This document shows positions 19,313-40,176 of a DNA stretch of 60,881 nucleotides, piece after piece. Source of the DNA: Maritimibacter sp. (GTDB lineage: Bacteria; Pseudomonadota; Alphaproteobacteria; Rhodobacterales; Rhodobacteraceae); contig NZNT01000008.1 of the NCBI GenBank assembly GCA_002695005.1, positions 1 to 60,881 of the forward strand, in the 5' to 3' direction. The translations under genes were made by a program, and so were the position numbers. Position 1 is the stretch's first letter, and each line of letters starts with the position of its first letter. The notes under the pieces were generated by a model. That model had not been told where the DNA came from and ran no database searches. It worked only from the letters and a program-made list of their open reading frames with translations.

Positions 19313-19338
19313 GCACCCAAGGTAACGCGGGACGGAAG

Positions 19339-21753
19339 ATGGAGCACAAGGCCGAGACCCGTGAGGGTCTCCCGTATCTTGACGGCTACGCGCCTCAGTC
19401 GGGCGTGTCGGACGAACTGTTCGACGCGACAGGCCGGATGCGTCCCGTGTGGCAGCCCTTCGTCGATGCCTTCACCGGGCTCTCGCGGGCCGAGATCGCG
19501 GGCCGGTTCGAGCGCGGCAATCAGTATCTGCGCGATGCAGGCGTCTACTTCCGGCAGTATTCCAACGAGCCGTTGCAGGAGCGGGAATGGCCGTTGAGCC
19601 ATGTCCCGGTCGTGCTGCATGAGACCGAGTGGGAGACGATCTGCGCGGGCCTCGCCCAACGGGCGGACCTGCTGGAAGCGGTCATGGCCGACCTTTACGG
19701 CCCCGGACGACTGGTGGCGGAGGGGCACCTGCCCGTCGACCTCGTGGCTGAAAGCGACCATTGGCTTCTGCCGATGGTTGGCGTGCCACCCGCGGGCGGG
19801 CATTACCTCCATGTCCTCGCCTTCGAAATCGGGCGCTCGCCGGACGGGTCGTGGTTCGTGCTGGGCGACCGCACGCAGGCACCGTCGGGCGCGGGATTTG
19901 CGCTGGAAAACCGGATGGCGACGAGCCGGATGTTTCCCGAGAGCTTCTCGAATGACCGGATCCACCGGCTCGCGGGGTTTTTCAACGACTTTCGCGGTGC
20001 GCTGGACCGGCTCGCAACCGGGCCGGACGGCCAGCCCCGTCGCACGGGTATCCTGACGCCGGGACCGGCGAATGACGCTTATTTCGAGCACACCTACATC
20101 GCGCGGTATCTGGGCCTCATGCTGCTGGAGGGCGAGGACCTGACGGTGCAGAACGGTCAGGCGATGGTGCGCACCATCGAGGGGCCAGAGCCTGTGGGCG
20201 CGTTGTGGCGGCGGATCGACGGTCAGTTCGCGGACCCGCTGGAGTTTGACCCCGATAGCCGCATCGGCACGCCGGGTCTTATGGAATCGGTCGCAACCGG
20301 CAACCTCGCGCTCGCCAATGCGTTGGGCTCCGGCGTGCTTGAGGCGCGCGCCATGATGGCGTTCCTGCCGCGCATCTCCCGCGTGCTGACGGGCAAGCCG
20401 CTCTCCATTCCCAATATCGCAACGTGGTGGTGCGGGGCTGCGAAGGAACGCGATTATGTGCGCGCCAATGCAGGACGGATGGTGATCGGCCCCGCCGGCG
20501 CGGTCGACCTGCCGTTCGACTGGTCCTCGGCCTCGGTCGTGGCGGGCACGCTGCGCGACACGGCGCGCGGGTCGCTCGACGAACTGCTGGCGACGGAAGG
20601 CGCGACGCTCGTGGGGCAGGAGGCGGTGAATCTGTCGACTACGCCGGCCTGGGTTGGCGACGGCGACACGGGCGCGCTTCGGCCCAGCCCCATGACGGTC
20701 CGGGTCTTCGCCACGCGCACACCTGAGGGCTGGCGCTTCATGAAGGGCGGCTATGCCCGGATCGGGCCAGAGGGCGATGCGGCCGCACTGGCCATGCAAC
20801 GCGGCGGCACGGTCGCAGATGTCTGGATTGCCGCCGATGCGCCGGTGCCGCAACCGACGCTCGACGCGGCCCCTGCCACGTTCCGGCGCCAACGCTCGGG
20901 CACCCTGCCCTCACGCGCGGCCGACAACCTGTTCTGGCTCGGCCGTTACATGGAACGGTGCGAAGACCTCATCCGCCTCGTGCGCGCCTATCACCTGCGC
21001 CTCGCCACGATGGAAGGACCGGACGATCCGCGCTTGAAGCTGATCCTGAATTACACGGCCCCCTTCGGTGCGGATGCAACACAGGCGATGCCCGATGCAC
21101 TGCTCGCGCGACTGTCGGCAGCGCAGGATTGCGCCTCCAAGATCCGCGACAGGTTCTCGATGGACGGCTGGCACGCGCTCCGGGATTTGTCGCAGACCAT
21201 GCGCGAAATGCAGGGCACGACCCGGCCCGGCGACGACGCCGCCCGCGCGATGAGTGTACTCTTGCGCAAGATCACCGGATTCAACGGGCTCGTGCATGAA
21301 AACATGTATCGCTTCGCCGGATGGCGGTTCCTGTCGCTGGGTCGGGCCATCGAACGGGCGGACGGGCTGGTGGCCATGCTCGCCACCTTCACCGACGAGG
21401 CCGCGCCTGCCGGGGCTCTCGACGTGGCCGTCGAGGTGGCCGACAGCGTCATGACCCATCAGCGCCGTTACCGGGTCAACACGAACCGCGAAACCGTGGT
21501 CGATCTTCTGGCGCTCGACGCCGACAACCCGCGCGCGGTCCTGTTCCAGATCGCCGAGTTGGAGCGGCTGGCGGCCGGATTGCCCAAGGCGACCGAGGTG
21601 GGCCGTCCCGGCCCGCTTTTGCGCCAGATCCTGCCGCTGAAGGCGCGGCTGGAAGTGGCCGACCCCGCCGATATCACGCCCGAGGTCTTTGCCGGCCTGC
21701 GGGCCGAGTTCGCCGCGATCTCGGGCCAGATCGCCCTGACTTACCTGCGCTGA
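19339..21753 (+). CDS. Circularly permuted ATP-grasp protein fused to an alpha-E domain
   Basis: An 804-residue fusion. The N-terminal part (about 1-480) matches the circularly permuted type-2 ATP-grasp family (VYFRQYSNEPLQEREWPL, then HYLHVLAFEIGRSPDGSW, and TWWCGAAKERDYV). The C-terminal part (about 515-804) is the all-helical alpha-E domain (SRAADNLFWLGRYMERCEDL). In many bacteria these are two genes; here they are one. ATP-grasp members ligate peptide-like carboxylates and amines using ATP; the substrate here is unknown. It is 26 bases after the DUF2126 gene and 3 bases before the second transglutaminase. Confidence 0.92.
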   Translation: MEHKAETREGLPYLDGYAPQSGVSDELFDATGRMRPVWQPFVDAFTGLSRAEIAGRFERGNQYLRDAGVYFRQYSNEPLQEREWPLSHVPVVLHETEWETICAGLAQRADLLEAVMADLYGPGRLVAEGHLPVDLVAESDHWLLPMVGVPPAGGHYLHVLAFEIGRSPDGSWFVLGDRTQAPSGAGFALENRMATSRMFPESFSNDRIHRLAGFFNDFRGALDRLATGPDGQPRRTGILTPGPANDAYFEHTYIARYLGLMLLEGEDLTVQNGQAMVRTIEGPEPVGALWRRIDGQFADPLEFDPDSRIGTPGLMESVATGNLALANALGSGVLEARAMMAFLPRISRVLTGKPLSIPNIATWWCGAAKERDYVRANAGRMVIGPAGAVDLPFDWSSASVVAGTLRDTARGSLDELLATEGATLVGQEAVNLSTTPAWVGDGDTGALRPSPMTVRVFATRTPEGWRFMKGGYARIGPEGDAAALAMQRGGTVADVWIAADAPVPQPTLDAAPATFRRQRSGTLPSRAADNLFWLGRYMERCEDLIRLVRAYHLRLATMEGPDDPRLKLILNYTAPFGADATQAMPDALLARLSAAQDCASKIRDRFSMDGWHALRDLSQTMREMQGTTRPGDDAARAMSVLLRKITGFNGLVHENMYRFAGWRFLSLGRAIERADGLVAMLATFTDEAAPAGALDVAVEVADSVMTHQRRYRVNTNRETVVDLLALDADNPRAVLFQIAELERLAAGLPKATEVGRPGPLLRQILPLKARLEVADPADITPEVFAGLRAEFAAISGQIALTYLR

Positions 21754-21756
21754 CCC

Positions 21757-22638
21757 ATGCTCTACGACGTCAAGCTCCGCATCGCCTACGCCTATACGAG
21801 CCCGTCGGACAAGACGCGGCTGGTGGTGCGCCTGCTGCCCAACACCATACCCGGTACGCAGGATGTGCTGTCGCGGCTCCTGACCTTCGACCCGGTTCCC
21901 GCTGAGAGACGTGAGCGCGTGGATTTCTTTGGAAACACGATGACGACGGCGGTGTGGCATCATCCGATGCAGGCGCTCACGATTGACCTCGCCGCCCGGT
22001 TCGACCGCAAGCCGCAGCCGAAACTGCTGGATTTCTCGCCCCCTGTCGGGGCCATCGGGGCCGAGATCGCCAGTCGCCGCAGCCTCGCCTCCTACGCACC
22101 GCAGCATTTCACCGCCGCTTCGCGCCGGGCCGGGCCCGATCCGTCGATGACCGCCTTCGCGCGCGACCATATCGGCCCTGAGATGACGACCTTTCAGGCC
22201 ATCGAGGCCATCGGGCGGGCGCTTTACACAGAAATGCGGTTCGATGCGTCGGCCACCGACGTCGGCACGCCCGCGCAGGAGGCTTTCGCAAACCGTCACG
22301 GCGTGTGCCAGGACTTCAGCCACGTCATGATCTCATGCCTGCGCGGCGTGGGCATTCCGGCAGGCTATGTCTCGGGCTTTCTGCGCACGTTGCCGCCACC
22401 GGGCCAGCCCCGGCTCGAAGGGGCCGACGCGATGCACGCCTGGGTTCGGGCCTGGGCGGGGAATGAGCTGGGCTGGATCGAGTACGACCCCACGAACGCG
22501 CAATTTGCAGGCGGAGATTACGTCACTGTGGCCTGGGGCCGCGACTACGACGATGTTTCCCCCGTTCGCGGGGCGGTGCGGGCGGCCGGAGGTCAGACGA
22601 GCACGCAGGCCGTGGACGTCATTCCAATCGGGGCGTGA
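21757..22638 (+). CDS. Transglutaminase-like cysteine protease family protein
   Basis: A 293-residue protein with an N-terminal Bact_transglu_N domain (about 1-85) and a transglutaminase core: Cys in HGVCQDFSH (near 183), His in DAMHAWVRA (near 227) and Asp in IEYDPTN (near 243). No signal peptide is seen, so it is cytoplasmic. It is the third gene of the DUF2126/ATP-grasp/alpha-E operon, 3 bases after the fusion gene. It likely acts on the same peptide product as protease, amidase or crosslinker. It is convergent with the TRAP operon, with 9 bases between stops. Confidence 0.91.
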   Translation: MLYDVKLRIAYAYTSPSDKTRLVVRLLPNTIPGTQDVLSRLLTFDPVPAERRERVDFFGNTMTTAVWHHPMQALTIDLAARFDRKPQPKLLDFSPPVGAIGAEIASRRSLASYAPQHFTAASRRAGPDPSMTAFARDHIGPEMTTFQAIEAIGRALYTEMRFDASATDVGTPAQEAFANRHGVCQDFSHVMISCLRGVGIPAGYVSGFLRTLPPPGQPRLEGADAMHAWVRAWAGNELGWIEYDPTNAQFAGGDYVTVAWGRDYDDVSPVRGAVRAAGGQTSTQAVDVIPIGA

Positions 22639-22647
22639 TCCCGCCCG

Positions 22648-23943
22648 CTAGAGCGACGGAAGCCACAGGACCAGCGCCGGGACCGCCAGGAGCAGCGCGA
22701 CGTGGAACAGGTCGGCGATGACGAAGGGGGTCGTGCCCCGGAACATCGTCATCAGCGGTATGTCACGGGCCACACCGCTCAGGACATAGACGTTCATTCC
22801 CACTGGCGGCGTAATCAGCGCGATCTCGGTCATGCGCACGACGAGCACGCCGAACAGCACGGCGTCGAACCCCAGCCCGGTCACCAGTGGGAAGAATAGC
22901 GGCACGGTCAGGGTCATCATCGCCGATGCGTCAAGGATCATGCCAAGAAACAGGTAGAGCGCGAGGATGATGAGCAGCACGGCCAAGGGCGGCAGATCGA
23001 CGGCGCTGACCCAGTTGACGAGATTCAGGGGAATTGTCGTGACGGTGATGAAGGCGTTGAACACCAGCGCGCCGAAGAGGATGCCGAAGATCATGCCGGT
23101 GGTGCGCAGCGTGTCGTAAACGGCGGTTCTGAGGCCCGGAAGGGTGAGCTTGCCCCGCGCACCTGCGATAACCAGAGCGCCGAACGCGCCCATCGCGCCG
23201 GCCTCGGTCGGCGTGAACCACCCCCAGATGATGCCGCCCATGACAAAGGTGAAAAGCGCGATGACGTCGCCGGTGCGCCGGAACCCCTCCCACCGCTCAC
23301 GCCAGCTATAGCGCGGGCCGGCCGGTCCGGCCTTGGGGTTCACACGGCAGCGGATGCCAATGACGGCCATGTAGAACACAGCCAGCAGGATGCCGGGGAT
23401 AATACCAGCGGCGAACATGTCGCCGATCGAGGTCTCGGTCAGGATGCCATAAATGATGAACATACCCGAGGGCGGAATGAGGCTGCCGATGGTGCCGCCG
23501 GCGGCGACCGAGCCGGAAGCGAGCGACAGGGAATACCCGTGTCGGCGCATTTCCGGCAGGGCGACGAGGCCCATTGTCGCGGTCGTGGCCAGCGAGGAGG
23601 CATTCACCGACGCGAACCCTGCCGACGCCCCGATGGTGGCCATGGCCAACCCGCCACGGCGATGGCCCAACATGCGGGCCGCGAATTCGTAAAGGTCCTT
23701 GCCGATCCCGCTGGCGAACAGCACATGGGCCATGAACAGGAACAACGGCACGGTCCCGATCGCGTAGTTGGTCGCGAGATCGAACGCGATGACGCCGACC
23801 TTGATGACTGCCGCGTGGAAGGTGATGAGCAGGCCGAAGCCCACGGCACCGACGAGGCCCATCGCGAACCCGATGGGCATGCCGAAGGCGATGAAGGCGA
23901 ACATCGAGACGATGCCGACGAGTCCTGCCATGACGGGCGTCAT
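22648..23943 (-). CDS. dctM: TRAP transporter large permease (DctM)
   Basis: A 431-residue inner-membrane protein with about 12 helices, the DctM/IT superfamily. Recognised segments are FGMPIGFAMGLVGAVGFGLL (about 20-39), ASSLATTATMGLVALPEMRR (about 115-134), GTIGSLIPPSGMFIIYGIL (about 146-164) and LITPPVGMNVYVLSGVA near the C-terminus. It couples Na+ or H+ flow to solute import with DctQ and DctP. The start ATG (23943) overlaps the dctQ stop as ATGA. It is the last gene of the operon that starts with the dehydratase-like gene at 31106. Confidence 0.94.
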   Translation of the reverse strand: MTPVMAGLVGIVSMFAFIAFGMPIGFAMGLVGAVGFGLLITFHAAVIKVGVIAFDLATNYAIGTVPLFLFMAHVLFASGIGKDLYEFAARMLGHRRGGLAMATIGASAGFASVNASSLATTATMGLVALPEMRRHGYSLSLASGSVAAGGTIGSLIPPSGMFIIYGILTETSIGDMFAAGIIPGILLAVFYMAVIGIRCRVNPKAGPAGPRYSWRERWEGFRRTGDVIALFTFVMGGIIWGWFTPTEAGAMGAFGALVIAGARGKLTLPGLRTAVYDTLRTTGMIFGILFGALVFNAFITVTTIPLNLVNWVSAVDLPPLAVLLIILALYLFLGMILDASAMMTLTVPLFFPLVTGLGFDAVLFGVLVVRMTEIALITPPVGMNVYVLSGVARDIPLMTMFRGTTPFVIADLFHVALLLAVPALVLWLPSL

Positions 23944-24428
23944 TTGCGCGGCTCCTGTTGAAGAATGCTTTGAAGGCCGCGCAACAGGCAGACCGCGATG
24001 GTCAGGCAGATCGCGGCCACCATGAGCCAGCGGAACGGCGCGACGGAGATATCGAGTATGGGCGTGACCTCGCCCTGCTTGCCGCGCCTGAGCGCCTCTT
24101 CGATGCCGGCGTAGGCGACGAAGATCCAGAACCCGGTGCCGGCGAGAAGCATCAGCCCTTGCGACCAGCCCGCGCCACGGGCGCTGAAGTTCTGGATGAG
24201 AAGATCGACTTTCGTATGCGTCCCCTCCCACGCGGCAAAGGCCAGCGCGCAGGAGACGGCAGGGATCAGCAACAACTCGGCCAGGACGTAGGTCCCGGGG
24301 AACGCGATGCCGATGCCCCGGAACACGACCGTCACGACGGTCAGGGTTGTCAGCGCGAGGAGCGCCACGACACCCAGCGCTGCGGTCGCGCGGATCGCCC
24401 AGCCAAGAACCTTCTCGACCTGCCTCAT
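23940..24428 (-). CDS. dctQ: TRAP transporter small permease (DctQ)
   Basis: A 162-residue protein with four hydrophobic helices. The third region carries AFAAWEGTHTKVDLLIQNFS (about 83-102), a typical DctQ signature with a charged KVD after helix 2. It forms the membrane unit with DctM and overlaps it by four bases. A GC-rich hairpin separates it from dctP. Confidence 0.92.
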   Translation of the reverse strand: MRQVEKVLGWAIRATAALGVVALLALTTLTVVTVVFRGIGIAFPGTYVLAELLLIPAVSCALAFAAWEGTHTKVDLLIQNFSARGAGWSQGLMLLAGTGFWIFVAYAGIEEALRRGKQGEVTPILDISVAPFRWLMVAAICLTIAVCLLRGLQSILQQEPRK

Positions 24429-24450
24429 CGGTTTCCCTTTCGTGACATGC

Positions 24451-24473
24451 GGGGGCGCCGCGCGGGCGCCCCC
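24451..24473 (-). other. Intercistronic hairpin between dctP and dctQ
   Basis: An 8-bp arm pair (GGGGGCGC / GCGCCCCC) with a 7-base loop in the 54-base gap between dctP and dctQM. It has no T-run, so it is not a full terminator. Such stems may stabilise the dctP message so that more binding protein than permease is made. Confidence 0.6.
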
Positions 24474-24482
24474 GGACGGGTC

Positions 24483-25478
24483 CTACTCTTCGTGCGCGGC
24501 GCGGATCCGGTCGAGCACTTCCGTCCCCGGTTTGCCCATCGCGTCGAGCTCCTCGGCGACCTCGGCGATGGCGGGCGCGAATTCCTTGGAATACTCCGCC
24601 ACGACCTCGGGCGAGACCGTGTTGAACGTCACACCCTGCTCTTCGCCATAGGCGCGCCCCTCGGCTTCGGCTTCCTGCGCGAGTTCGAGCGTCCGCAGGC
24701 TCAGCCACTCGGTGTTTTCGTCGAAGATCTGCTGGATGTCCTCAGGCAGATCCGCCCAGACGCTGCCGTTGACCGCGCGCGACGGATAGGCGCCGCGTGA
24801 ATGGGGCAGTTCGGAGTAGTAGCTCACGACCTCGGCGAAACTCAGCGATTTGAGGGCTTCATACGGGGCAATGACGCCGTCCAGCACGCCCTTTTCGAGC
24901 GAAGGATAGGTCTCGGTCATCGGCATGGTCACGCCTTCGGCACCGTAGGCGGCAAGCGGGCCGATGAAGTCCACGGCCGAGCGGATGCGAAGCCCGCCCA
25001 GATCGTCCAGCGTCTCGACGGGCCCGTCGCGCAACAGCAGGTGCATCGGCGTGCCCACGTTGTAGCCCACGACATGCACGCCGTTCAGTTCCTCGTCGAA
25101 AACCGGATATTCCTCGACCAGGTCCATGTAGACGTCGAGCACCTTTTCCGGGTCGGTGAAGCCATAGAACATGCCCGGCACGAGCCGGTTCATGTCATAG
25201 CCCGACCGGGCATAGATGGGTGCGATATAGCCCATGTCGGCGACCCCGGCGGACAATTCATCGACCCCTTCGCGCGAGGTGATGAGGGACCGGCCCCAAT
25301 AAGGCGTTATCTCGACACGACCGCCGGATTGTTCTTCGATGCGCGCGATCCACTCGGCATCGGCGGCGCCGTAGGGATGTTCCTCGGTATAGGGCGAGGC
25401 GTAGGTCAGGTCGAAGTCAGCGGCCCATGCGGGCAGCGCCGTCAGGCAAAGCGAAACGATTGCGGTTGTTCTGAGCAT
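24483..25478 (-). CDS. dctP: TRAP transporter substrate-binding protein (DctP)
   Basis: A 331-residue periplasmic protein with a signal peptide cleaved near PAWAA (about 1-19). DctP features are YTEEHPYGAADAEWIARIEE (about 31-50), a solute-carboxylate region LDDLGGLRIRSAVDFIGPLA with the conserved Arg (about 158-177), and EKGVLDGVIAPYEALKSLSF. The ligand should be an organic acid. Context (acyl-CoA enzymes in the same operon) suggests a carboxylate that is then activated to its CoA ester, but the identity is unknown. Confidence 0.93.
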   Translation of the reverse strand: MLRTTAIVSLCLTALPAWAADFDLTYASPYTEEHPYGAADAEWIARIEEQSGGRVEITPYWGRSLITSREGVDELSAGVADMGYIAPIYARSGYDMNRLVPGMFYGFTDPEKVLDVYMDLVEEYPVFDEELNGVHVVGYNVGTPMHLLLRDGPVETLDDLGGLRIRSAVDFIGPLAAYGAEGVTMPMTETYPSLEKGVLDGVIAPYEALKSLSFAEVVSYYSELPHSRGAYPSRAVNGSVWADLPEDIQQIFDENTEWLSLRTLELAQEAEAEGRAYGEEQGVTFNTVSPEVVAEYSKEFAPAIAEVAEELDAMGKPGTEVLDRIRAAHEE

Positions 25479-25503
25479 TGTTGTTTCCTCCCAATGAGTT
25501 GCG

Positions 25504-26697
25504 TCAGTGCGGTGCCGGGGTTGTGTGCCCGGTCTGTTGCGCGGGCGTTCGGGCCAGCGCGTTTATCTGTGTCTCGGTCAGGTCGAGGCCGCGCAGGACC
25601 TCGGCGGTGTGGGTTCCGGGCAGAACGGCCGGCGCAGGCGCGGTGAAGGCACCCAGACGCACCGGCGGCCCGGCCTGCGTGAGCGCGCCACCGGGCGCGT
25701 CGAGGGCGATCACCATGCCGCGTGCGCGGAAATGCGGTTCGGCCAGCGCCTCGGCCAGACTGTTGACCGGCGCGAATTGCGTCCCCGCCGCTTCGAGATG
25801 GGCAAGCCAGTGGTCGCGCGGACGTGTCGCAAAGACGGCCTGAAGCCCCTCACGGATCTCGGCGCGACGCTCTGCGTCCAGTTGCCAGCCGGCGTAGTCC
25901 GGTTTTCCCATCGCCTCGCAGAAGGCCACCCAGTAGCGCGGCTCCATGTCGGTGGTGACCAGCCATTCGCCATCCGCACAGCGCCACAGCCCCATGTCGG
26001 CGCGCCGGGTTCCGCGCGACGGTATGTCGGCGGGGTCTTCGTGCCTTGCGATCAGGTTGGCGAGCAGGACCAGCGAACAGTCCGACATCGCCACGTCGAC
26101 ATGACGCCCTGCGCCCGTCGCGCGTGCCTCCATGACAGCCGCGAGCGTGGCGAACCCGGCATGTGCCCCGGTGACGACGTCCGCCGCCGCAAATCCCGGC
26201 AAACCCGGTGCATCCGGGTCCTCGCCCGTGCGGCTCAGGACGCCCGCCAGCGCCAGAGCCACGGGATCGTGCCCCGGCTTGTCGCGCAGGGGGCCGGTCT
26301 GGCCGCAGAGTGTGAGGGAGGTGTAGACGAGCTTTGGGTTGATCTCGGACAAGGCCGCATAGCCCAGCCCGAGACTGCCCAGAACGCCCGGTCGGTAGTC
26401 CTCGACCACCACATCCACCGTGGCGGCGAGTTTGCGCAACGTGGCCTGCGCCTCGGGGTCGCCCAAATCGAGACAGATCGACTTCTTGCCGCGTGCCAGC
26501 ATGTCGCGCGCGCGCTGCCGGGCGCGGCCTGTGTCATCCAGCTTGTCCCACCCGAACACCTTGGCCTGCTTGGCGAGTTCGCGCGGATGCTCGACCCGGA
26601 TCACCTCGGCCCCCTGATCTGCGAGAAGCCAGGTGGCGTAGGGTCCCGGCAGCAGACGGGAGAAGTCCAGAACGCGAAGGCCGGCGAGAGCACTCAT
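25504..26697 (-). CDS. CaiB/BaiF family CoA-transferase (A)
   Basis: A 397-residue class III CoA-transferase. It has LPGPYATWLLADQGAEVIRV (about 16-35), KKSICLDLGDPE and a catalytic-Asp segment AAADVVTGAHAG (near 172-183), followed by ATGAGRHVDVAMSD. These enzymes move CoA between carboxylic acids through aspartyl-CoA anhydrides. The start ATG at 26697 overlaps the stop of the preceding gene (ATGA); the open frame upstream of it is read-through. It lies between a second CaiB-like gene and dctP, in the same transcript. Confidence 0.9.
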   Translation of the reverse strand: MSALAGLRVLDFSRLLPGPYATWLLADQGAEVIRVEHPRELAKQAKVFGWDKLDDTGRARQRARDMLARGKKSICLDLGDPEAQATLRKLAATVDVVVEDYRPGVLGSLGLGYAALSEINPKLVYTSLTLCGQTGPLRDKPGHDPVALALAGVLSRTGEDPDAPGLPGFAAADVVTGAHAGFATLAAVMEARATGAGRHVDVAMSDCSLVLLANLIARHEDPADIPSRGTRRADMGLWRCADGEWLVTTDMEPRYWVAFCEAMGKPDYAGWQLDAERRAEIREGLQAVFATRPRDHWLAHLEAAGTQFAPVNSLAEALAEPHFRARGMVIALDAPGGALTQAGPPVRLGAFTAPAPAVLPGTHTAEVLRGLDLTETQINALARTPAQQTGHTTPAPH

Positions 26698-27680
26698 GTA
26701 GCGCCCCCCGGGTGCACGGCAAAGAGCGGTCCGGGCACGCCATCCGCATCGAACACGCCCCGCGCTTTCATCTGCGGTGTCTCGGGCACTTCCGACAGGC
26801 GGATGATCGGAGACAGGCCCCAGCCGTGCTCCAGCGACCAGTCGGCCAGCGTCTTGCGGTCGTGGCGGGCGAAGAACGTCTCGACGATCCCCTGCCAGCG
26901 GTCGATCACCTCCTGATCCGTGTCGGCCACGAGTATGTCGTCCCAGTCGATATTGGCGAGCTCGCCAGCGACGCCCTCCTCCTCCATTACCCGCACGATC
27001 GCGCGCATCATGCCGGGGTTGTCGATCATCGACCACGTCACATAGCCGTCGGCACAGGGCCAGATCTGGCGCACGCCGGACTTGCCGCGCACGAGCATGT
27101 TGCCGCGCCGCGTTCCAATTCGCCCGGTCTGGTCGTACATTACCGCCTCGCGGTAATTCGCCAGTGCTGCGGACTGCACCGCGGAGAGCGTGATGCGCTG
27201 CCCCTTGCCGGTCAGCCGTCGCGCGCGCAGGCCCATGAGCGCTGCGGTCGCTGTCTGGATGCCGGTCAGAGCGTAGCCCTGTTCGCCGGGCAGACGGAGC
27301 GGCGGGCGGTCGGGCTGGCCGGTCACATGCATCAGCCCGGATTGCGCCATGAGGGTCAGGTCGGTGACCGGACGCATGTCGTTCGGAAAGCCCGTGACGA
27401 CGACATGGATCAGAGCCTCGTGCCGGGCGGCGAGGTCATCGACACCCTCACGCGGGTCCGTGCGCCGGTCGTCGATCAGGATGTCGGCACCTTCGAGCAA
27501 CGTCTCAAGCGGCGCGTCGGAGCGAGTCATGCTCTTGTGCCACGCCTTCGCGCGCGGCGCGGTCAGCGGGGCCGCGTCGGCCAGCACAACCTCGGCCCCG
27601 AGCCGGGCCAACATGCTGCCCCCGAAATCGGCCAGATGATCGGCAAGCACCACAACACGGATACCATCGAGCAGGGTCAT
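26694..27680 (-). CDS. Short CaiB/BaiF family protein (B), probable non-catalytic partner
   Basis: A 328-residue CaiB/BaiF member, about 60-70 residues shorter than usual. The N-terminal GIRVVVLADHLADFGGSMLA and LGAEVVL fit the fold, but the expected catalytic-Asp position reads GEQGYALTGIQTA (about 146-158), with no Asp. It may be an inactive subunit pairing with CoA-transferase A or C, as heteromeric class III CoA-transferases such as BbsEF are known. Its start overlaps the stop of gene C by ATGA and its stop overlaps the start of gene A. Confidence 0.82.
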   Translation of the reverse strand: MTLLDGIRVVVLADHLADFGGSMLARLGAEVVLADAAPLTAPRAKAWHKSMTRSDAPLETLLEGADILIDDRRTDPREGVDDLAARHEALIHVVVTGFPNDMRPVTDLTLMAQSGLMHVTGQPDRPPLRLPGEQGYALTGIQTATAALMGLRARRLTGKGQRITLSAVQSAALANYREAVMYDQTGRIGTRRGNMLVRGKSGVRQIWPCADGYVTWSMIDNPGMMRAIVRVMEEEGVAGELANIDWDDILVADTDQEVIDRWQGIVETFFARHDRKTLADWSLEHGWGLSPIIRLSEVPETPQMKARGVFDADGVPGPLFAVHPGGAT

Positions 27681-28792
27681 GCCAGCGCCCCCTCTGCGAT
27701 GAGGTCCGCGATCTCGTCCTCGGACAGGCCGATCTCGGCGAACACCGCGTCATTATCCGCCCCCAGACAGGGCGACGGCCCGACGTGGGACGGCGTATCG
27801 GCAAAGGCATAGGGCGGCGCGGGCATCTTGGCGACACCGATCACGGGATGGTCCACCGGCACGAAATGACCGGCAGCGTTGAGCGCCGGATGTTCGGACA
27901 ACCCCTTGCCGTCGAGCACGAGTGCTGCTGGAATACCCTTGGCCACGAGGGCCGCTTCAAGCTCATCTGCCTCCCAGGCAGGGGTGCGCTCCTCGGGAGA
28001 GCCGTCCAGAACCGCGTCCAAGGCTGCGCGGTTCGCATCGGTTTCACAGGCGATGGCGATCCAGCGGTCGTCTTTGCAGGAAAACACGCCGTGCGGGTCC
28101 ATTTCGGGGTCGCTGTTGGCGGGCTTTTCGTCGGGCATTTCGGCGAACAGGTCGCCTGCCACCTGCACCATCGCTTCGATCTGGCTCACGTCGACATGCA
28201 CGCCCTGCCCTGTCCGGTCGCGATGTTCGAGCGCTGACAGGATCGCCACGGTCAGCATCATCGGCGCGACGACATCGCCATAGGCCAAGGGCGGCATGTG
28301 CGGATCGCTGTCGGGCCAGCCGGTCATGTCGCAATGGCCCGACCACGCGGCCGCGGAATTGCCGTAGCCGCGAAAGCCCGCCATCGGCCCGGTGCGTCCG
28401 GCCACGGATACGCTGGCGAGGATGACGCCCGGCCGGACCCTTTGCAGGTCGTCCCAGCCCAGCCCGATCCGGTCCATGTATCCGGGGCCGAAGTTTTCGA
28501 CCACCACATCGGCCCATGCGACGAGCTTGCGCGCGACCTCCTGCCCGCGCGGGTCGGACAGGTTGATCGTCACGCTTTTCTTCGAGGTGTTCGTCTGCGC
28601 GAAAAACACCGAAGCATCGTGGTTGCGCCGGTCACCGCCCGCGAAAGGCGGTGACCGGCGACCGAGGTCGAGGCGGCGGGAGGATTCCACCTTGACGACC
28701 GTGGCCCCGTTGTCGGCGAGGTCCTTGGTGGCGCGCGGCCCGGCGCCGACCCATGAGAAATCCGCCACTTTCAATCCGTCGAGCGCGCCCAT
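27677..28792 (-). CDS. CaiB/BaiF family CoA-transferase (C)
   Basis: A 371-residue class III CoA-transferase. The N-terminus is MGALDGLKVADFSWVGAGPR; the CoA-binding region has TNTSKKSVTINLSDPRGQE; the catalytic Asp is in LAYGDVVAPMML (near 181-192), followed by GQGVHVDVSQIEAM. The start at 28792 overlaps the preceding stop as TGATG. It is translationally coupled to the dehydratase-like gene upstream, which suggests that it makes or exchanges the CoA ester that the dehydratase-like proteins act on. Confidence 0.9.
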   Translation of the reverse strand: MGALDGLKVADFSWVGAGPRATKDLADNGATVVKVESSRRLDLGRRSPPFAGGDRRNHDASVFFAQTNTSKKSVTINLSDPRGQEVARKLVAWADVVVENFGPGYMDRIGLGWDDLQRVRPGVILASVSVAGRTGPMAGFRGYGNSAAAWSGHCDMTGWPDSDPHMPPLAYGDVVAPMMLTVAILSALEHRDRTGQGVHVDVSQIEAMVQVAGDLFAEMPDEKPANSDPEMDPHGVFSCKDDRWIAIACETDANRAALDAVLDGSPEERTPAWEADELEAALVAKGIPAALVLDGKGLSEHPALNAAGHFVPVDHPVIGVAKMPAPPYAFADTPSHVGPSPCLGADNDAVFAEIGLSEDEIADLIAEGALA

Positions 28793-30039
28793 CACGCAGC
28801 CTCCAGTTCGTCGAGGGCGGCGCGGACCCGCGCCTCCATCTTTTCGCGGTCCCACTCGCGCGGATCGACCATGTCCGAGTGAATCTCGATCACCGTCACG
28901 CCGGCCTCGCGCAGCGCGTTGCGCGCGAAATAGGATCCGTAGCCCGAAAAGCGGTCGTGTTCGGGCACCAGCATGACCGCCACGTCGATGCGCCAGCGCT
29001 TTGCCTCCTTCACCAGCCATTCGTTGACCCACGGAGGTTGGTGAAGCTGTTCGTTCATCGCCGAAACCCGCGCGGCAAGGGCCCGCAGCGGGTCCCCGTG
29101 ATCCGTGCGGATGTAGCCGTCCGCGGCGAAAGGCACATACATCGACCAAGCGAACACGGCGCCATGTGACTCTTCGAACGCGCTGTAGAAGGACGTGTCG
29201 AACCAGAGCCCGGCCCCGATCCACATCATGCGGATACGCTCGTTCTCGCAGACCGCCGCGCCCTGAGCGATGCGGTCGCCCACCTCGGCGCGGAAGGCGC
29301 GGACGTGGGACAGCGCCCAGTCCGAACCGCGGTGCCATTGCGGGATCATGACATTCGGCATCTGCTCGGAAATGCTCATGGGGGACTTGTCGGCCGCCGC
29401 CAGCATGTCCGCGACCTCGTCCACCACCCGCTCCTGCGCGTCGATGCGCGCCATGTAGTCGGCGAAACCGTCGCGGTCGAAGGCGCGCCCGGTCATCCGC
29501 TCGAGCGCCTCGATCAGCCCCTCCATCTCGTCGACCATGAGGTCGAGCCGCGCGGTGCCATACAAATCCTCCCAGTCCGAGCGGGCCTGCACCCACCAGT
29601 CCGGGGCCGGATCGGGGGTGGCAGGTGCCGAAAGGATATGCAGCTCCGCCCCCGTCAGCTCCGCCCAACGCTGAAAAAGGCGCGGATGCTCGTCGGAACT
29701 GGCTCGCGCGCACAAAAGCGCGGGCGACGGAAGCCCGCCCCAGGGCTGGAGGTCGAAGTCGCCCTCCATCTGTGCGATCAGCGGCAGGCTCGAGTAGCGC
29801 GGCAGATGCGCGTGAAAGCCCATCTCCTCCATCCGGTCGAAATAGCGCGGCGCGAGTTGCTTGGCCGCGATCACCGCGGACCACCACTGGTTCGTCACCA
29901 TCGGCACGTCCATGAAGTGAAACAGCTCATGCGGCGTGTCCGCGTTGACAAAGGCATAGTCGGCCCCGTCGGTGATCTGACCACGCAGGCCCTTGAGCCA
30001 GTCGCGCTGGTATCCGGCGGCGGTCGCGGCACAGGTCAT
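28792..30039 (-). CDS. 2-hydroxyacyl-CoA dehydratase / benzoyl-CoA reductase-like subunit
   Basis: A 415-residue member of the HgdB/BcrB superfamily by overall pattern: NADTPHELFHFMDVPMVTNQ (about 32-51), a helical middle, CENERIRMMWIGAG (about 272-285), and a C-terminal VPEHDRFSGYGSYFARNALR followed by GVTVIEIHSDMVD. Characterised members hold a [4Fe-4S] cluster with three Cys. In my alignment the positions corresponding to the CSY, TCD and later Cys motifs read RYSS, SSDE and no Cys, so a classical cluster seems unlikely. No activator ATPase (HgdC/BadF type) is in the window. Reaction unknown. Confidence 0.78.
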   Translation of the reverse strand: MTCAATAAGYQRDWLKGLRGQITDGADYAFVNADTPHELFHFMDVPMVTNQWWSAVIAAKQLAPRYFDRMEEMGFHAHLPRYSSLPLIAQMEGDFDLQPWGGLPSPALLCARASSDEHPRLFQRWAELTGAELHILSAPATPDPAPDWWVQARSDWEDLYGTARLDLMVDEMEGLIEALERMTGRAFDRDGFADYMARIDAQERVVDEVADMLAAADKSPMSISEQMPNVMIPQWHRGSDWALSHVRAFRAEVGDRIAQGAAVCENERIRMMWIGAGLWFDTSFYSAFEESHGAVFAWSMYVPFAADGYIRTDHGDPLRALAARVSAMNEQLHQPPWVNEWLVKEAKRWRIDVAVMLVPEHDRFSGYGSYFARNALREAGVTVIEIHSDMVDPREWDREKMEARVRAALDELEAA

Positions 30040-31106
30040 GTCAGCGCCTCCTCGATTTTCGTTCGGGCCATGTCCTGCCAGGCCGCATCCGGCCGGAACG
30101 GGCGGAAGCCGAGGTTCAGGAAACGCGCCCCGCGCGATTCGACCGTGCGCCGCAGGACGGGCAGTTCCCAGCCGAACGAGTCGTCGTTGGCATCCACGCT
30201 GGCAATCACGAGGTCAGCACCCTCGGTGCCCTCCTGAAGCGCACGGGTGTAGCGAACCGGAGGTGACGCGCGCGTGGCGAGGGGATCGTGCGCGATGTGG
30301 CGCAACAGATCGGCGGAGTTTCGCGCCGTCGGAGCGATGCGACCGTAATCCTGAAGATCCGCCGTGATCTGCCCGAGGCCTGCGCAAAGGCTGTGGAGCA
30401 CCGGAATGTCGCAGGCGCTTCCGACGAGGACGATGCTCGGACCCGTTGCGCCTGCATCCGGTGCATGTGCGCCCAACAAGTCCGCGTGGACATCAGGTGG
30501 CAGCCAGCGGCCCGCATTGCGCGCGACGAACGCGTCGGGCCCGCCCGGAGGCAAAGCGTGAAGGGCTTGCGCGCACCGCGCTTCTGCCGCGACAGCATCT
30601 GCCAGGCGGTCCGGGTCGAGAGTTGCACCGAGCGTGTCTTCCAGATGTGCGGTCAGACGCTCGAGTTCCCGGCGATTGAACCGTTCTGCCGGGGCGCTGT
30701 CGGTGTGCAGGAGATTCCACAGATACAGACGCGGCCCGGCCGCAGGCAGGATGCCCTGCCGGCGCAATTCGGTCGCGTATTGATATGCAGCCAGCCCCGC
30801 CACATCGTCGCGCGCGAACACGATCGTGGCGAACGTGTCGAAAGACCCCGCTGCAAAACGATGCAGAAAGCGCGCCGTGAAAGAATCCAGAAATGGTTCC
30901 GCGACCGATGCGACGCTCGGCATGTCCGGCCCGTCCAGCGCATCGGACAGCGGAGGCGCTTTGACGTCGACGCTTACTCCGCCGAGCGCCGTGACCAACG
31001 GACCCGGCACGCCTTCGCCGAAGACACCAACGGGCACCCCGAAGCCCGCGTCGATGCCATCCGCGCGGCGGTCAAAAGCCAGCTGCATGTCAGATTGGAC
31101 CGGCAC
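30036..31106 (-). CDS. 2-hydroxyacyl-CoA dehydratase-like partner subunit
   Basis: About 356 residues and distantly related to the same superfamily. It has GVPVGVFGEGVPGPLVTALG (about 21-40), FARDDVAGLAAYQYATELRR, and a C-terminal SVDANDDSFGWELPVLRRTV. The expected cluster Cys before the Asp reads ARDD. The GTG at 31106 is chosen as start: it has GGGGAG just upstream, and the longer frame from 31190 would begin upstream of the predicted -35 box at 31169-31174. It is the first gene of an eight-gene operon with ATGA/TGATG junctions, and overlaps the next gene by four bases. Confidence 0.68.
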   Translation of the reverse strand: MPVQSDMQLAFDRRADGIDAGFGVPVGVFGEGVPGPLVTALGGVSVDVKAPPLSDALDGPDMPSVASVAEPFLDSFTARFLHRFAAGSFDTFATIVFARDDVAGLAAYQYATELRRQGILPAAGPRLYLWNLLHTDSAPAERFNRRELERLTAHLEDTLGATLDPDRLADAVAAEARCAQALHALPPGGPDAFVARNAGRWLPPDVHADLLGAHAPDAGATGPSIVLVGSACDIPVLHSLCAGLGQITADLQDYGRIAPTARNSADLLRHIAHDPLATRASPPVRYTRALQEGTEGADLVIASVDANDDSFGWELPVLRRTVESRGARFLNLGFRPFRPDAAWQDMARTKIEEALT

Positions 31107-31140
31107 CTCGCCCTCCCCTGCGTTGGTTGCCTCTGATTTG

Positions 31141-31155
31141 GTTCCAGTTGGAAAC
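31141..31155 (-). promoter_or_regulatory. Putative MarR operator, site 1 (dehydratase operon)
   Basis: Minus-strand GTTTCCAACTGGAAC is a 15-bp pseudo-palindrome. It matches site 2 (31750-31764) at 12 of 15 positions in the same orientation relative to the regulated gene. It lies 13 bases after a TTGACA box, so it overlaps the expected -10 of the dehydratase operon. Confidence 0.6.
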
Positions 31156-31174
31156 CTTTTTCCGATTCTGTCAA
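31146..31174 (-). promoter_or_regulatory. Predicted promoter of the dehydratase/CoA-transferase/TRAP operon
   Basis: TTGACA on the minus strand (31174 to 31169), with the region at 17-base spacing (31151-31146, CCAACT) as a weak -10 lying within operator site 1. A poor -10 under an operator suggests tight control. Confidence 0.4.
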
Positions 31175-31183
31175 CTGTGGAGT

Positions 31184-31212
31184 TTGACAACTGGTAGCGG
31201 AGCGCCTAGCGA
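31184..31212 (+). promoter_or_regulatory. Predicted promoter of the marR gene
   Basis: TTGACA (31184-31189), a 17-base spacer and TAGCGA (31207-31212), 28 bases before the marR start. Its -35 faces away from the dehydratase operon -35 across about 10 bases, so the two promoters are back to back. Confidence 0.5.
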
Positions 31213-31240
31213 AGATCAGGTCTGAGGAAAGGCGGTCAGG

Positions 31241-31723
31241 ATGAACACAACGCGCGAAACTCCAGCCGGCTTCTCGTTCGGGCGCCTGTCCGAAGACATC
31301 GCCTTTCTGACCCGCATCCTGCGCACCAGGATACAGGAGCGAAACCGGGGTTTCTTCTCTGCGCACGATGTCGCAGGGGGCGAGGTCGCGGTGCTGAACC
31401 TTATCCACTCGAACCCGGGCCTCACGCAAAGGGACCTGTCCCGCATGGTTGTCCTGCGGAAATCCGCTTTGACCAAGCTGATCAATGAAATTGAGCGATC
31501 GGGCTGGATCGAACGCCGCAAGGAAGGCTCTGACAAAAGGCTGAACGCGCTCTACCTGACGCCGGAAGGCACAACGCGCCTCGCACGGATGCAACAAGAC
31601 ATGACGGCCTTGCAGGACGAACTTCTGGCCCCTCTGACCCCGGCCGAGCGTGCGATCCTGTTCGAATTGCTCTGGAAACTGATCGACGACCCGTCGGTCG
31701 GCAGTGTGGCGGAGCCTGAGTGA
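31241..31723 (+). CDS. MarR family transcriptional regulator
   Basis: A 160-residue winged-helix protein. Helix-turn-helix region: VLNLIHSNPGLTQRDLSRMV (about 51-70), then VLRKSALTKLINEIERSGWI as recognition helix; wing: RRKEGSDKRLNALYLTPEG. The terminal helices form the dimer. MarR proteins usually repress a divergent operon and release DNA on binding an aromatic or acyl-CoA ligand. It sits between two arms that both carry the same palindrome over their promoters, so it probably controls both. The ligand may be a CoA ester made by the locus. Confidence 0.9.
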   Translation: MNTTRETPAGFSFGRLSEDIAFLTRILRTRIQERNRGFFSAHDVAGGEVAVLNLIHSNPGLTQRDLSRMVVLRKSALTKLINEIERSGWIERRKEGSDKRLNALYLTPEGTTRLARMQQDMTALQDELLAPLTPAERAILFELLWKLIDDPSVGSVAEPE

Positions 31724-31728
31724 AACGC

Positions 31729-31764
31729 TTGACACGATCGCACCATTAGGTTTCCATTTGAAAC
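31729..31764 (+). promoter_or_regulatory. Promoter with putative MarR operator, site 2 (CoA-transferase D)
   Basis: TTGACA (31729-31734) begins five bases after the marR stop. The palindrome GTTTCCATTTGAAAC (31750-31764; perfect GTTTC/GAAAC arms) covers the expected -10 position (TTCCAT at 17-base spacing). It lies 66 bases before the CoA-transferase D start. Confidence 0.55.
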
Positions 31765-31830
31765 TAGTTTGGCGAAGGTCAAAGCGCGTGCGTGAAGACA
31801 TATCGTCGCCATGTTGAGGGGGAGAACGAA

Positions 31831-32979
31831 ATGGCGAAGCCGCTCGAAGGCATACGGGTCGCGGATTTCAGTCATGTGATTGCGGGTCCGCTCGCGACGC
31901 AATTCCTCAATTTGCTCGGGGCTGAGGTCATCAAGGTCGAACCCCCGGCAGGCGACCCGATGCGCAACTACACCCGCAACCCGGAACGACGCGGGATGGC
32001 GGAACCGTTTGTCGGGGCGAATGCCGGGAAAAAGTCCGTCGTGCTCGACCTGAAGACCGACGAAGGTCGCGCTGCGGCCCGGAAGCTGGTCGCTACGGCG
32101 GACGTTGTTGTCGAGAATTTCCGGCCCGGCGTTGCAGAGCGCCTTGGATTGGGACCGCAGGCCCTGACCACCGCGCACCCCGAACTGATCTATTGCTCGG
32201 TCTCCGGCTTCGGCCAGGACGGGCCGATGCGAGATTTTCCGGCCATTGATCAAGTGATCCAGAGCGTTTCCGGTTTGATGCTCCTGTCAGGGCACGAGGG
32301 TGAGCCGGCTGAGCGGATCGGCTTTCCCATTGTCGACACCTATTCGGCTTTGCTCTCCGCTTTTGCGATCCTGTCGGCTGTTGTTCAACGTGAGCGCGAC
32401 CCGCAACGGCGCGGCCAGGTGGTCGATGTGTCGATGTTGGACGCGACAATGGTGATGATGAGTTCGGTGGTGGTGCCGATGATGCTGGCAGGCGAGTCAC
32501 CGCGGCGCGCGGGAAACCGGGGTTTCTCAGGCGCACCGACCGCCGACACGTTTGCGACGGCGGACGGGGAGATCACCATCGGTGCCGTTCAGCAGATACA
32601 GGTCGAACGGCTCTTCCGCACGCTCGGATGCGAAGACTTGCTCGACGACGCGCGTTTCTCGACGCCGGATGCACGGATGGCAAACGATGCGGCGCTTCAG
32701 GCCGTACTGAAAGATCGCTTTGCCACCCGGACGGCGCTGGATTGGGAGGCCGATCTGGCCGCCGCTGGCGTCCCGGCGGGCAAGGTCAGGCCCTTGGACG
32801 AAACGATGACTCTGGAACAGTTGCAGGGGCGTGACCTTTTCCTCGACCTTGGCGACGGGTCGCAAATCCTGAATGCCGGTTTCAAATTCGGACGAGACGG
32901 TCCGGGTGTAGCCTCGCCAGCGCCCGGCCTCGGTGCAGACACCGAAGCGGTGCTTGCGCAGTTGAAGGCCGAAGACTGA
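31831..32979 (+). CDS. CaiB/BaiF family CoA-transferase (D)
   Basis: A 382-residue class III CoA-transferase with all usual features: MAKPLEGIRVADFSHVIAGP, LGAEVIKVEPPAGDPMR, KKSVVLDLKTDEGR, VVENFRPGVAERLGL, the catalytic Asp in IGFPIVDTYSALL (near 169), and PAGKVRPLDE near the end. The ATG at 31831 follows GAGGGGGAG. It has its own operator-bearing promoter downstream of marR, so it is co-regulated with the divergent operon but separately transcribed. Confidence 0.91.
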   Translation: MAKPLEGIRVADFSHVIAGPLATQFLNLLGAEVIKVEPPAGDPMRNYTRNPERRGMAEPFVGANAGKKSVVLDLKTDEGRAAARKLVATADVVVENFRPGVAERLGLGPQALTTAHPELIYCSVSGFGQDGPMRDFPAIDQVIQSVSGLMLLSGHEGEPAERIGFPIVDTYSALLSAFAILSAVVQRERDPQRRGQVVDVSMLDATMVMMSSVVVPMMLAGESPRRAGNRGFSGAPTADTFATADGEITIGAVQQIQVERLFRTLGCEDLLDDARFSTPDARMANDAALQAVLKDRFATRTALDWEADLAAAGVPAGKVRPLDETMTLEQLQGRDLFLDLGDGSQILNAGFKFGRDGPGVASPAPGLGADTEAVLAQLKAED

Positions 32980-33693: not shown

Positions 33694-34653
33694 TCACAGC
33701 AAGAAATCCCGGATCGGGCCGGTTTCGATCTGGCGCAGACCCGACGGCGACTCGACCAGGAACAGGGCCGCCAGGTCCTCTGTCGCGGCAAGGTCCGGCC
33801 CGGCCTCTGCCCCGGCCGCACAAAGCGCGGTCGCCCAGCCGTCAGCGATTGTCGCCTCCGCCGCCACAACAGTCACGGATCTGAGAGCCCCGGACAACGG
33901 TTCGTCGGTTCGCGTGTCGATGATATGGCTGTAGAGGCGACCATTCAGATGATAGCTTTGCCGCCAGACGCCGGAGGTCGCTACCGCCGCCCCTCCGGGG
34001 AGGCGCAGCGCCGGGGCGGGCGCAGGTGCTTCCACACTCAAGCGCCAGTCGCGACCGGTGGGATGCTGTCCTTGCGCTATCAACTCCCCCCCGAGCTCAA
34101 AGAGAAAATCGGACAGCCCGAAGGCCGTGGCCAATGCACCGGCGCGATCCAGCGCCCAGCCCTTGGCGATGCCACAGAGATCGAGGGTCACGTCGTCGCG
34201 CGCCTTGGCGATCGCCCCGGCCCCGGTGGAGAGCCCATGCCAATCGGGCTGACCGCCCCCCGTGATCGGGCCGAACCCCCAGCGGGCCACGAGTGGTCCG
34301 ACCGTGGGGTCGAAGGCGCCCTCGCTCTTGCGCGCGAGGTTCAACGCTCTGGAACTGACCTCGGACAGAGCGGCGTGCTGCACGGACCCGGCCTTCTCTG
34401 CGTTGAAACGGGAAATGACACTGTCAGGGCGCCAGGGAGAAAAAACCGTGTCGACCTCTGCGAAGACGCGCTCGATTTCGCGGCCGAGGCGTTCGAGAGG
34501 CTGTCCCGTGTCCGCCAGCAGTCGCCAACTGGTCCCGAAAGCGTGGCCGGACAGGCTCGCCATCCCGCCTGCCAGGACTGACCGTGGGAACAGGGCCGCC
34601 CCGGCGAGAAGGCCGAGCGCGCCGCGACGGGAGAGGTGTGGGGTCGTCTGCAT
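33694..34653 (-). CDS. apbE: ApbE-type FAD:protein FMN transferase
   Basis: A 319-residue exported flavin transferase. The N-terminus has SRRGALGLLAGAALF, a twin-arginine-like or Sec signal. ApbE motifs: AFGTSWRLL (about 38-46), AFDPTVGPLVARWGFG (about 112-127), DLCGIAKGWALDRA (about 158-171), ELGGELIAQG and HIIDTRTDEPL (about 245-255). It attaches FMN through phosphoester bonds to Thr in NqrC and normally also in NqrB. Here only NqrC shows an acceptor motif. It is 3 bases after nqrF. Confidence 0.93.
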   Translation of the reverse strand: MQTTPHLSRRGALGLLAGAALFPRSVLAGGMASLSGHAFGTSWRLLADTGQPLERLGREIERVFAEVDTVFSPWRPDSVISRFNAEKAGSVQHAALSEVSSRALNLARKSEGAFDPTVGPLVARWGFGPITGGGQPDWHGLSTGAGAIAKARDDVTLDLCGIAKGWALDRAGALATAFGLSDFLFELGGELIAQGQHPTGRDWRLSVEAPAPAPALRLPGGAAVATSGVWRQSYHLNGRLYSHIIDTRTDEPLSGALRSVTVVAAEATIADGWATALCAAGAEAGPDLAATEDLAALFLVESPSGLRQIETGPIRDFLL

Positions 34654-34656
34654 CGA

Positions 34657-35880: not shown

Positions 35881-36491
35881 GACGCGGCCGCCATCTGCGA
35901 AAACGCCGCGAAGCCGAGCGACATGAGACCTGCAAGGACGAAACCGATGCCGAGGCCGCGCATCCCTGAGGGCAGATTGGCGTAAGCCAGCCGCGACCGG
36001 ATCGCGCCCAGCATCACGACGGCCACGGCAAAGCCCACCCCGCTCCCAAGTCCGAAGACGGTCGATTCAACGAGCGAATAGCTGCGCTCGACCATGAACA
36101 GGCTGCCTGCGAGGATGGCGCATTGCACGGTCAGGAGGGGCAGGAACACCCCGAAGGCCGCATGGATCGCCGGGAAAAACCGGTCGAGCACCATTTCAAG
36201 CACCTGAACGGCTGCGGCGATCACGCCGATGAAGGCGATGAGGGCGAGATAGGACAGGTCGAGTTCCGGCATCCCCGCCCAGCCCCAGGCACCGGGTGCC
36301 AGGACGTGGGAGTAGATCAACTGATTGAGCGGCACCGTTACTCCCAGCACCGCCGTCATCGCCACGCCAAGGCCAAGCGCCGCGTCGGGCCGTTTGGACA
36401 GGGCGAGGAACGTGCACAGCCCAAGGAACAGGATCAGCGGCATGTTGTCGACGAAGGCCGCGGTCAGGAAAAGCGTCCAGAGCTCGGTCAT
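35877..36491 (-). CDS. nqrE: Na+-NQR-type subunit E
   Basis: A 204-residue protein with six helices. The intramembrane iron-centre cysteines are present: Cys26 in LFLGLCTFLAL and Cys123 in LLTVQCAILAG. Six-helix RnfA/NqrE pattern throughout (EMVLDRFFPAIHAAFGVFLP). It forms an inverted pair with NqrD. The start at 36491 overlaps the nqrD stop by ATGA. Confidence 0.94.
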   Translation of the reverse strand: MTELWTLFLTAAFVDNMPLILFLGLCTFLALSKRPDAALGLGVAMTAVLGVTVPLNQLIYSHVLAPGAWGWAGMPELDLSYLALIAFIGVIAAAVQVLEMVLDRFFPAIHAAFGVFLPLLTVQCAILAGSLFMVERSYSLVESTVFGLGSGVGFAVAVVMLGAIRSRLAYANLPSGMRGLGIGFVLAGLMSLGFAAFSQMAAAS

Positions 36492-37153: not shown

Positions 37154-37155
37154 GA

Positions 37156-39996: not shown

Positions 39997-40176
39997 GCCG
40001 TTATCGACCCTCTTGGCCAGCTGAATGCGCTTTCACGCGACGAGGCCTCGAGGCTGAAGCGTAGCAAGGGGATCCAATGCCTAATATGAGCCAGATCAAA
40101 GTATGGCAGCCGTAGCGCCGTCATACTCGGCGCATTGACCTTGCTTCATCGACCCGTTCTCGAGAGGAGACCGATC

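Follow-up and report, generated by a model that had tools for sequence, protein, structure and literature searches.

The superfamily of 2-hydroxyacyl-coenzyme A (CoA) dehydratases and benzoyl-CoA reductases (HAD/BCR) is known for oxygen-sensitive radical chemistry. Among class III CoA-transferases, the catalytic role of a conserved Asp is established, and the presence of this residue in one subunit only is defining for BbsEF, the succinyl-CoA:(R)-benzylsuccinate CoA-transferase. Benzylsuccinate CoA-transferase uses succinyl-CoA (PMC10818641), and the class I benzoyl-CoA reductase BzdNO holds [4Fe-4S] and [8Fe-9S] clusters, with BzdPQ proposed as its ATP-dependent activator (PMC11971306). In this study, we analyzed a stretch of 60,881 nt from Maritimibacter sp. 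(contig NZNT01000008.1, the whole stretch being called the window), in which a module within 22648-32979 combines a tripartite ATP-independent periplasmic (TRAP) importer (DctPQM), four CaiB/BaiF proteins (CaiB1 to CaiB4), a MarR-family regulator, and two subunits of HAD/BCR descent (HGDa and HGDb, together HGDab). Judging by the alignments, HGDa/HGDb lack the residues holding an iron-sulfur cluster and, because these residues are lost, probably do a different reaction.

Two homologous subunits with the HGD-D fold, as in the HAD/BCR radical enzyme family, were identified, and they were the sole two PF06050 matches of the host genome. The HGD-D match of HGDb was sub-threshold (5e-5, 23.5 bits vs. 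a cut-off of 28.4), and HGDb was therefore assigned to the family by profile and fold evidence, i.e., by its matches to BzdN (4.3e-32) and to the HAD beta subunit (1.1e-23) and by a predicted structure (predicted local distance difference test score of 94.9) matching 8s02_B and 3o3m. The HGDa model best matched HAD/BCR alpha subunits, and the HGDb model matched beta subunits. Public records automatically name these proteins '2-hydroxyacyl-CoA dehydratase family protein', and an earlier note, made from the DNA letters alone, had called them dehydratase-like; this description is right as to ancestry and fold but wrong as to mechanism, since the cluster ligands and the catalytic Glu are missing and no activator lies nearby.

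The cluster ligands of BzdO are Cys95, Cys128, and Cys380, and its catalytic Glu is Glu65 (PMC11971306). These three Cys, together with HadB Cys84, Cys117, and Cys346, align with P80, S115, and D362 of HGDa. Glu55, the catalytic Glu of HadB, aligns with HGDa Q51, and so does BzdO Glu65, which lies two residues beyond the printed alignment. For the comparison of relatives, 98 HGDa proteins plus that of the window were reduced to 92 rows by removing identical copies, L088, whose frame is broken, and all proteins shorter than 390 aa, and four of six canonical rows were added as an outgroup. The position of Q51 was occupied by Gln in 87 of the 92 rows and by Glu in 4/4 outgroup rows, and the four canonical rows retained the three Cys as well as the Glu. 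None of the three Cys ligands was present in 49/92 HGDa rows, two were present in 41/92 (a CxxC plus one Cys), and three in 2/92. The clade of the window had none of them, with Pro or Ala at position 80, Ser or Ala at 115, and Asp at 362 (48/92). Additionally, no conserved Cys column was found among 31 HGDb proteins (the window and 30 of the 76 found).

Across 96 loci of the same type as that in the window, each about 5 to 31 kb long, no activator ATPase (PF01869) was found, and PF01869 had no match in the host genome (E ≤ 0.001). Canonical HGD-D controls of the same bacterial family (L023-L028) had the activator ATPase in 6/6 cases, within the fetched 1.5-kb flank, and three of these ATPases also emerged from the PF01869 search across the family. 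The search works within this bacterial family, since 300 of its 394 genomes matched PF01869 (192 over the cut-off); PF01869 is a broad family, and we take most of the matches, judged by their scores, to be kinase-like proteins. The locus pairs L059/L032, L062/L037, L063/L038, L064/L039, and L084/L040 come from the same genomes, so that both these activator counts and the conservation counts below overlap.

HGDa segments were paired by eye with the CoA-channel helices and loop of BzdO (PMC11971306). The channel segments 50-60 (0.88), 222-241 (0.85), and 267-286 (0.80) were well conserved relative to the overall mean of 0.66, and the former ligand segments were less conserved (0.61-0.64). On a tree of the HGDa rows, which was built by a quick method and has a long outgroup branch and an uncertain root, the Cys states needed 4 changes vs. 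35.9 in shuffles. The pair with three Cys stood beside the zero-Cys clade (Shimodaira-Hasegawa-like approximate likelihood ratio test, SH-aLRT, 87), and the rows with two Cys were on other branches, suggesting that the ligands were probably lost separately and more than once; a loss order of three, two, and none is plausible. In a deltaproteobacterial bin (L090:13848-19590), the three-Cys version adjoins CapA-like, PrpD-like, and glycyl radical enzyme genes, the last of which matched general dehydratase-type models only, all below the cut-off.

The module was compared across a collection of relatives, of which the best 80 of 141 were kept (counts out of 80 refer to these). All ten genes were present in 24/80 relatives by best tblastn label, as well as in 8/8 nearest relatives of the same order (HGDa identity of 71-84%; partly the same genomes as the 80), in two of which marR was displaced and only 31-33% identical. 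Neighbourhood clustering, suggested in the earlier note as a check, thus indicates that the module travels as a unit. A CaiB protein was encoded in 78/80 loci, a TRAP large permease in 70/80 (any match within the locus, including those of low identity), and an HGDb open reading frame (ORF) in 76/80. No HGDb ORF was found in L056, L089, L091, and L123; L056 and L091 had a partial tblastn match, L089 has a run of N, and L123 begins near a contig end. Reduced modules keep HGDb-HGDa-CaiB4 (L040, L041, L076-L080, L082, and L084-L087), and all of them other than L040 and L041 also carry a TRAP set and cytochrome P450s. The 80 relatives were mainly Rhodobacterales, Hyphomicrobiales, and Sphingomonadales, with a few Steroidobacteraceae and other Gammaproteobacteria, two Asticcacaulis, two Burkholderiales, two Terriglobia, and two Deltaproteobacteria bins. 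Within the order, HGDa matched in 19/390 genomes, including the host; seven of these matches were weak (25-26% identity), six being of the canonical type (L023-L028) and the seventh L029. A metagenome contig titled Klebsiella pneumoniae (L119) carries a two-Cys module and groups with the gammaproteobacterial bins L104 and L106 (SH-aLRT 94), and its label is probably wrong.

The best solved chains for CaiB2 and CaiB3 were 9fn0_A (3.5e-16) and 9fn0_B (5.2e-57), respectively, which are two different chains of benzylsuccinate CoA-transferase. In the alignment of the window proteins, the catalytic column held Tyr in CaiB2 and Asp in CaiB1, CaiB3, and CaiB4. In a 700-residue Croceicoccus protein, the first half is most similar to CaiB2 (26%), and the second half is most similar to CaiB3 (36%). 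This CaiB2-CaiB3 fusion is one annotated coding sequence in L046 and L047 and one ORF in L127; the fusion label was given in 36/80 loci as a best-hit count, of which only these three were individually confirmed as one frame, and the two halves were not in a single ORF in L089/L090. These sequence comparisons suggest that CaiB2 and CaiB3 are probably one heteromeric enzyme of the BbsE/BbsF type. The three CoA-transferase-like genes in a row that the earlier note had found unusual are indeed present, but would then be such a pair plus CaiB1. CaiB4 adjoins HGDab and is the CoA-transferase retained in the reduced modules. All four CaiB proteins were far below the curated cut-offs of the NCBIfam equivalogs tried (formyl-CoA, oxalate, glutarate, mesaconate, carnitine, and 2-methylfumaryl-CoA isomerase). 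The 4.27-Mb host genome had nine PF02515 matches, corresponding to eight genes (one in two pieces), four of them within the module (E ≤ 0.001).

Taken together, the module may be a MarR-regulated catabolic system, in which the TRAP importer would bring in an organic acid and class III CoA-transferases (CaiB4 and the heteromeric BbsEF-type CaiB2/CaiB3) would attach CoA to it, with succinyl-CoA or a similar compound as the donor. The HGDa/HGDb heterodimer would then bind the CoA ester in the channel inherited from its HAD/BCR ancestors and carry out a reaction that proceeds without a [4Fe-4S] cluster and without an ATP-driven activator. The likeliest chemistry would be of the acid-base type, such as hydration, dehydration, isomerisation, or cleavage of a C-C bond. 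Gene content, conservation of the set, the fold predictions, the lost ligands and catalytic Glu, and the lack of a nearby activator are direct results, and we infer the order of the steps, the binding of CoA, the formation of the complex, and the type of chemistry, and we hold the scheme as a whole to be slightly better than an even bet. Given that the adjoining genes serve acid import and CoA transfer, HGDab is most simply read as a CoA-ester enzyme that no longer uses electrons. The stronger proposal, that HGDab is a branch of the superfamily without radical iron-sulfur chemistry and catalyzes a new oxygen-tolerant, ATP-free acyl-CoA reaction in a catabolic pathway of its own, is put forward tentatively, with a probability somewhat short of even. 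The sequence of import, CoA transfer, and a reaction on the CoA ester had already been proposed in the earlier note, and it fits the parts of a set that stays together; likewise, its author knew of no described pathway with such a composition, and we found no description of the module when searching an open-access library and no curated NCBIfam equivalog that fits the CoA-transferases. If correct, the proposal would show, for a widespread branch, how an oxygen-sensitive enzyme can be adapted to oxic life while its fold and pairing are kept, and it would correct the automatic name in public records. Marine and soil Proteobacteria would then have an organic-acid pathway that is still uncharted, with DctP and MarR as handles on the substrate.

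Several observations weigh against the scheme as a whole. Two deltaproteobacterial relatives retain all three Cys of HGDa and 41/92 rows retain two; a cluster or a metal may therefore be present in some members. PF01869 matched elsewhere in 11/20 carrier genomes (9 over the cut-off), making a distant activator possible there. No conserved base was identified in HGDa: BzdO His131 aligns with H118, and His occupies this position in only 39/92 rows. Helix 1, which also contributes to the channel, had a lower conservation than the average (0.57). Ten of the 80 loci, along with L040/L041, are reduced versions with no CaiB1 to CaiB3 nearby. Finally, the best 9fn0_A stretch of the fused Croceicoccus protein falls in its second half, which leaves CaiB2 as the basis for regarding the first half as BbsE-like.

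HGDab might instead be non-enzymatic, either as a pseudoenzyme pair that binds or shields a CoA ester or as a partner that regulates the CoA-transferases or supports them structurally. The loss of both the ligands and the catalytic Glu, the fast evolution of HGDb (mean column identity of 37% in the alignment of 31), and the proximity of HGDa to a CaiB in nearly all loci would agree with this; however, 56 HGDa positions, ten of them Trp, are kept in ≥98% of the 92 rows, which seems beyond the needs of a scaffold, and we consider such a role unlikely. Retention of redox chemistry with a changed cofactor, be it a mononuclear metal, a flavin, or an otherwise-liganded cluster, is more doubtful still: it could account for the CxxC and the additional Cys of the two-Cys rows and for the members with three Cys, but the clade of the window has lost all three, shows no conserved substitute at two of these positions, and has no activator nearby. 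The Pfam HGD-D match, the fold, and the CoA-transferase neighbours would also fit an ordinary enzyme of the HadAIBC or Bcr/Bzd type (2-hydroxyacyl-CoA dehydratase or benzoyl-CoA reductase); this candidate was rejected as very improbable, because the cluster ligands, the catalytic Glu, and the activator (in the window and in the host genome) are missing, and because the 80 carriers come for the most part from proteobacterial groups with a mainly aerobic lifestyle. A chance neighbourhood of unrelated genes, for which only the clade-to-clade differences in CapA, CocE, and P450 neighbours would speak, has a negligible probability and was rejected, given the ten-gene set kept together in several families, the overlapping reading frames, and the shared palindromes.

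The module has two arms (Table 1). Eight genes on the minus strand, in the order HGDb-HGDa-CaiB3-CaiB2-CaiB1-DctP-DctQ-DctM, form one arm, and marR and CaiB4 form the divergent arm on the plus strand. Overlaps in the first arm measure 1-4 nt: ATGA overlaps of four bases join DctQ/DctM, CaiB2/CaiB1, CaiB3/CaiB2, and HGDb/HGDa, the HGDa/CaiB3 junction is TGATG, and DctP is flanked by gaps of 25 nt and 54 nt. HGDb starts with GTG at 31106, preceded by GGGGAGGG; for CaiB4, the ATG at 31831, preceded by GGGGGAGAA, is a likelier start than the GTG at 31792. All three TRAP components were identified by Pfam, and DctM and DctP were also above the cut-offs of their subfamily models. The layout of both arms, the TRAP importer, and the four CaiB/BaiF proteins (CoA_transf_3) described in the earlier note were thus borne out by coordinates and Pfam matches, and its view of a MarR-controlled regulon gains support from operator-like palindromes in both promoter gaps, which make control of both arms by MarR likely.

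Table 1. Coordinates of the module genes and operator-like palindromes in the window.
Feature	Position	Strand	Evidence
DctM, TRAP large permease	22648..23943	-	PF06808 6.1e-89; TIGR00786 above its cut-off
DctQ, TRAP small permease	23940..24428	-	PF04290 7.5e-14
DctP, TRAP solute-binding protein	24483..25478	-	PF03480 1.7e-34
CaiB1, class III CoA-transferase, Asp in catalytic column	25504..26697	-	PF02515 2.4e-90, alignment
CaiB2, class III CoA-transferase homologue without catalytic Asp, probable BbsE-like partner	26694..27680	-	PF02515 2.1e-36
CaiB3, class III CoA-transferase, Asp in catalytic column, probable BbsF-like partner	27677..28792	-	PF02515 1.2e-83
HGDa, alpha subunit of predicted cluster-free HAD/BCR-like pair	28792..30039	-	HGD-D (Pfam) 1.5e-40
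HGDb, beta subunit of HAD/BCR-like pair, no conserved Cys	30036..31106	-	profile, fold, alignment of 31
MarR-family regulator	31241..31723	+	PF12802 2.3e-12
CaiB4, class III CoA-transferase, Asp in catalytic column	31831..32979	+	PF02515 1.3e-111, alignment
First operator-like palindrome GGTTCCAGTTGGAAACC, HGDb/marR gap	31140..31156		
Second operator-like palindrome GGTTTCCATTTGAAACT, marR/CaiB4 gap	31749..31765		

The palindrome pattern, GTTTC-N(4-6)-GAAAC, was tested in the window and 27 chosen relatives. The second palindrome had 0 mismatches in the window and in 9/15 nearer relatives, and none of the 200 shuffles made of each of these gaps scored as well; the first was weaker, with 1 mismatch in the window (reached in 0.005 of shuffles). 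With ≤2 mismatches, the palindrome occurred in both gaps in 15/15 nearer and 0/12 farther relatives, a sample in which some relatives are one species or genome twice and in which matches with 2 mismatches are common in shuffles (up to 0.2). A scan of the whole window returned only the first palindrome, counted on both strands, and two matches were reached by 11/100 shuffles.

The nearest solved chains of DctP (4n6d, 4nap, and 4pgn) suggested nothing firm about its ligand; the ligands of 4nap and 4pgn are aromatic. CapA/MslH-like proteins, cytochrome P450, CocE hydrolase, MmgE/PrpD, DUF3237, and FAD monooxygenases recur as neighbours in some clades, but none of them was found in the window's stretch, and they did not lead to a substrate. 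P450 matches follow the reduced module in 10/10 loci (L076-L080, L082, and L084-L087), and FAD monooxygenases lie near the module in the two loci inspected, L084 (17739-20600) and L127 (18457-19698), which suggests that the substrate also undergoes oxygenation.

Beside the module, an Nqr-like set on the minus strand (33694-39996) encodes ApbE, an NqrF-like protein, a 511-aa Rnf-Nqr-domain protein, FMN_bind, and an NqrA-like protein; it is not part of the module, since the ApbE query was found in 1/80 loci and the NqrF query in 0/80. A multihaem cytochrome-like gene (40135-41349) and a Na+/H+ exchanger gene (41360-42538) lie near this set. Elsewhere in the window, consecutive plus-strand genes (15956-22638) encode a transglutaminase-like/DUF2126 amidoligase, a circularly permuted ATP-grasp plus Alpha-E protein, and a second transglutaminase-like protein, and the minus strand (55116-60749) encodes a repeat protein of 1877 aa that has Big_9 and cadherin-like domains and matches VWA weakly.

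Among described systems, the (R)-2-hydroxyisocaproyl-CoA dehydratase HadBC, which works with the class III CoA-transferase HadA and the activator HadI, differs from HGDab in the three Cys and the Glu given above and also in HadB S37 (A33 in HGDa), and no counterpart of HadI is near HGDab. BzdNO and the 3-methylbenzoyl-CoA reductase MbdON are the best sequence relatives of HGDa (8s02 and 9g87), and BzdN is the best match for HGDb, although the clusters and the proposed activator BzdPQ of BzdNO contrast with the missing ligands and activator of the HGDab module. The importer shares the DctP family and its nearest solved relatives with the TRAP systems of 4n6d, 4nap, and 4pgn. No other bbs genes were identified by Pfam in the window's operon, and CaiB2/CaiB3 differ from BbsEF in the shortened CaiB2 and in their fusion in Croceicoccus; like BbsEF, they are dissimilar subunits encoded side by side, with separate best-matching chains in 9fn0 and with the catalytic Asp in one subunit only. 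The module is a new variant inside a known superfamily, in an uncharacterised pathway, and not a new fold.

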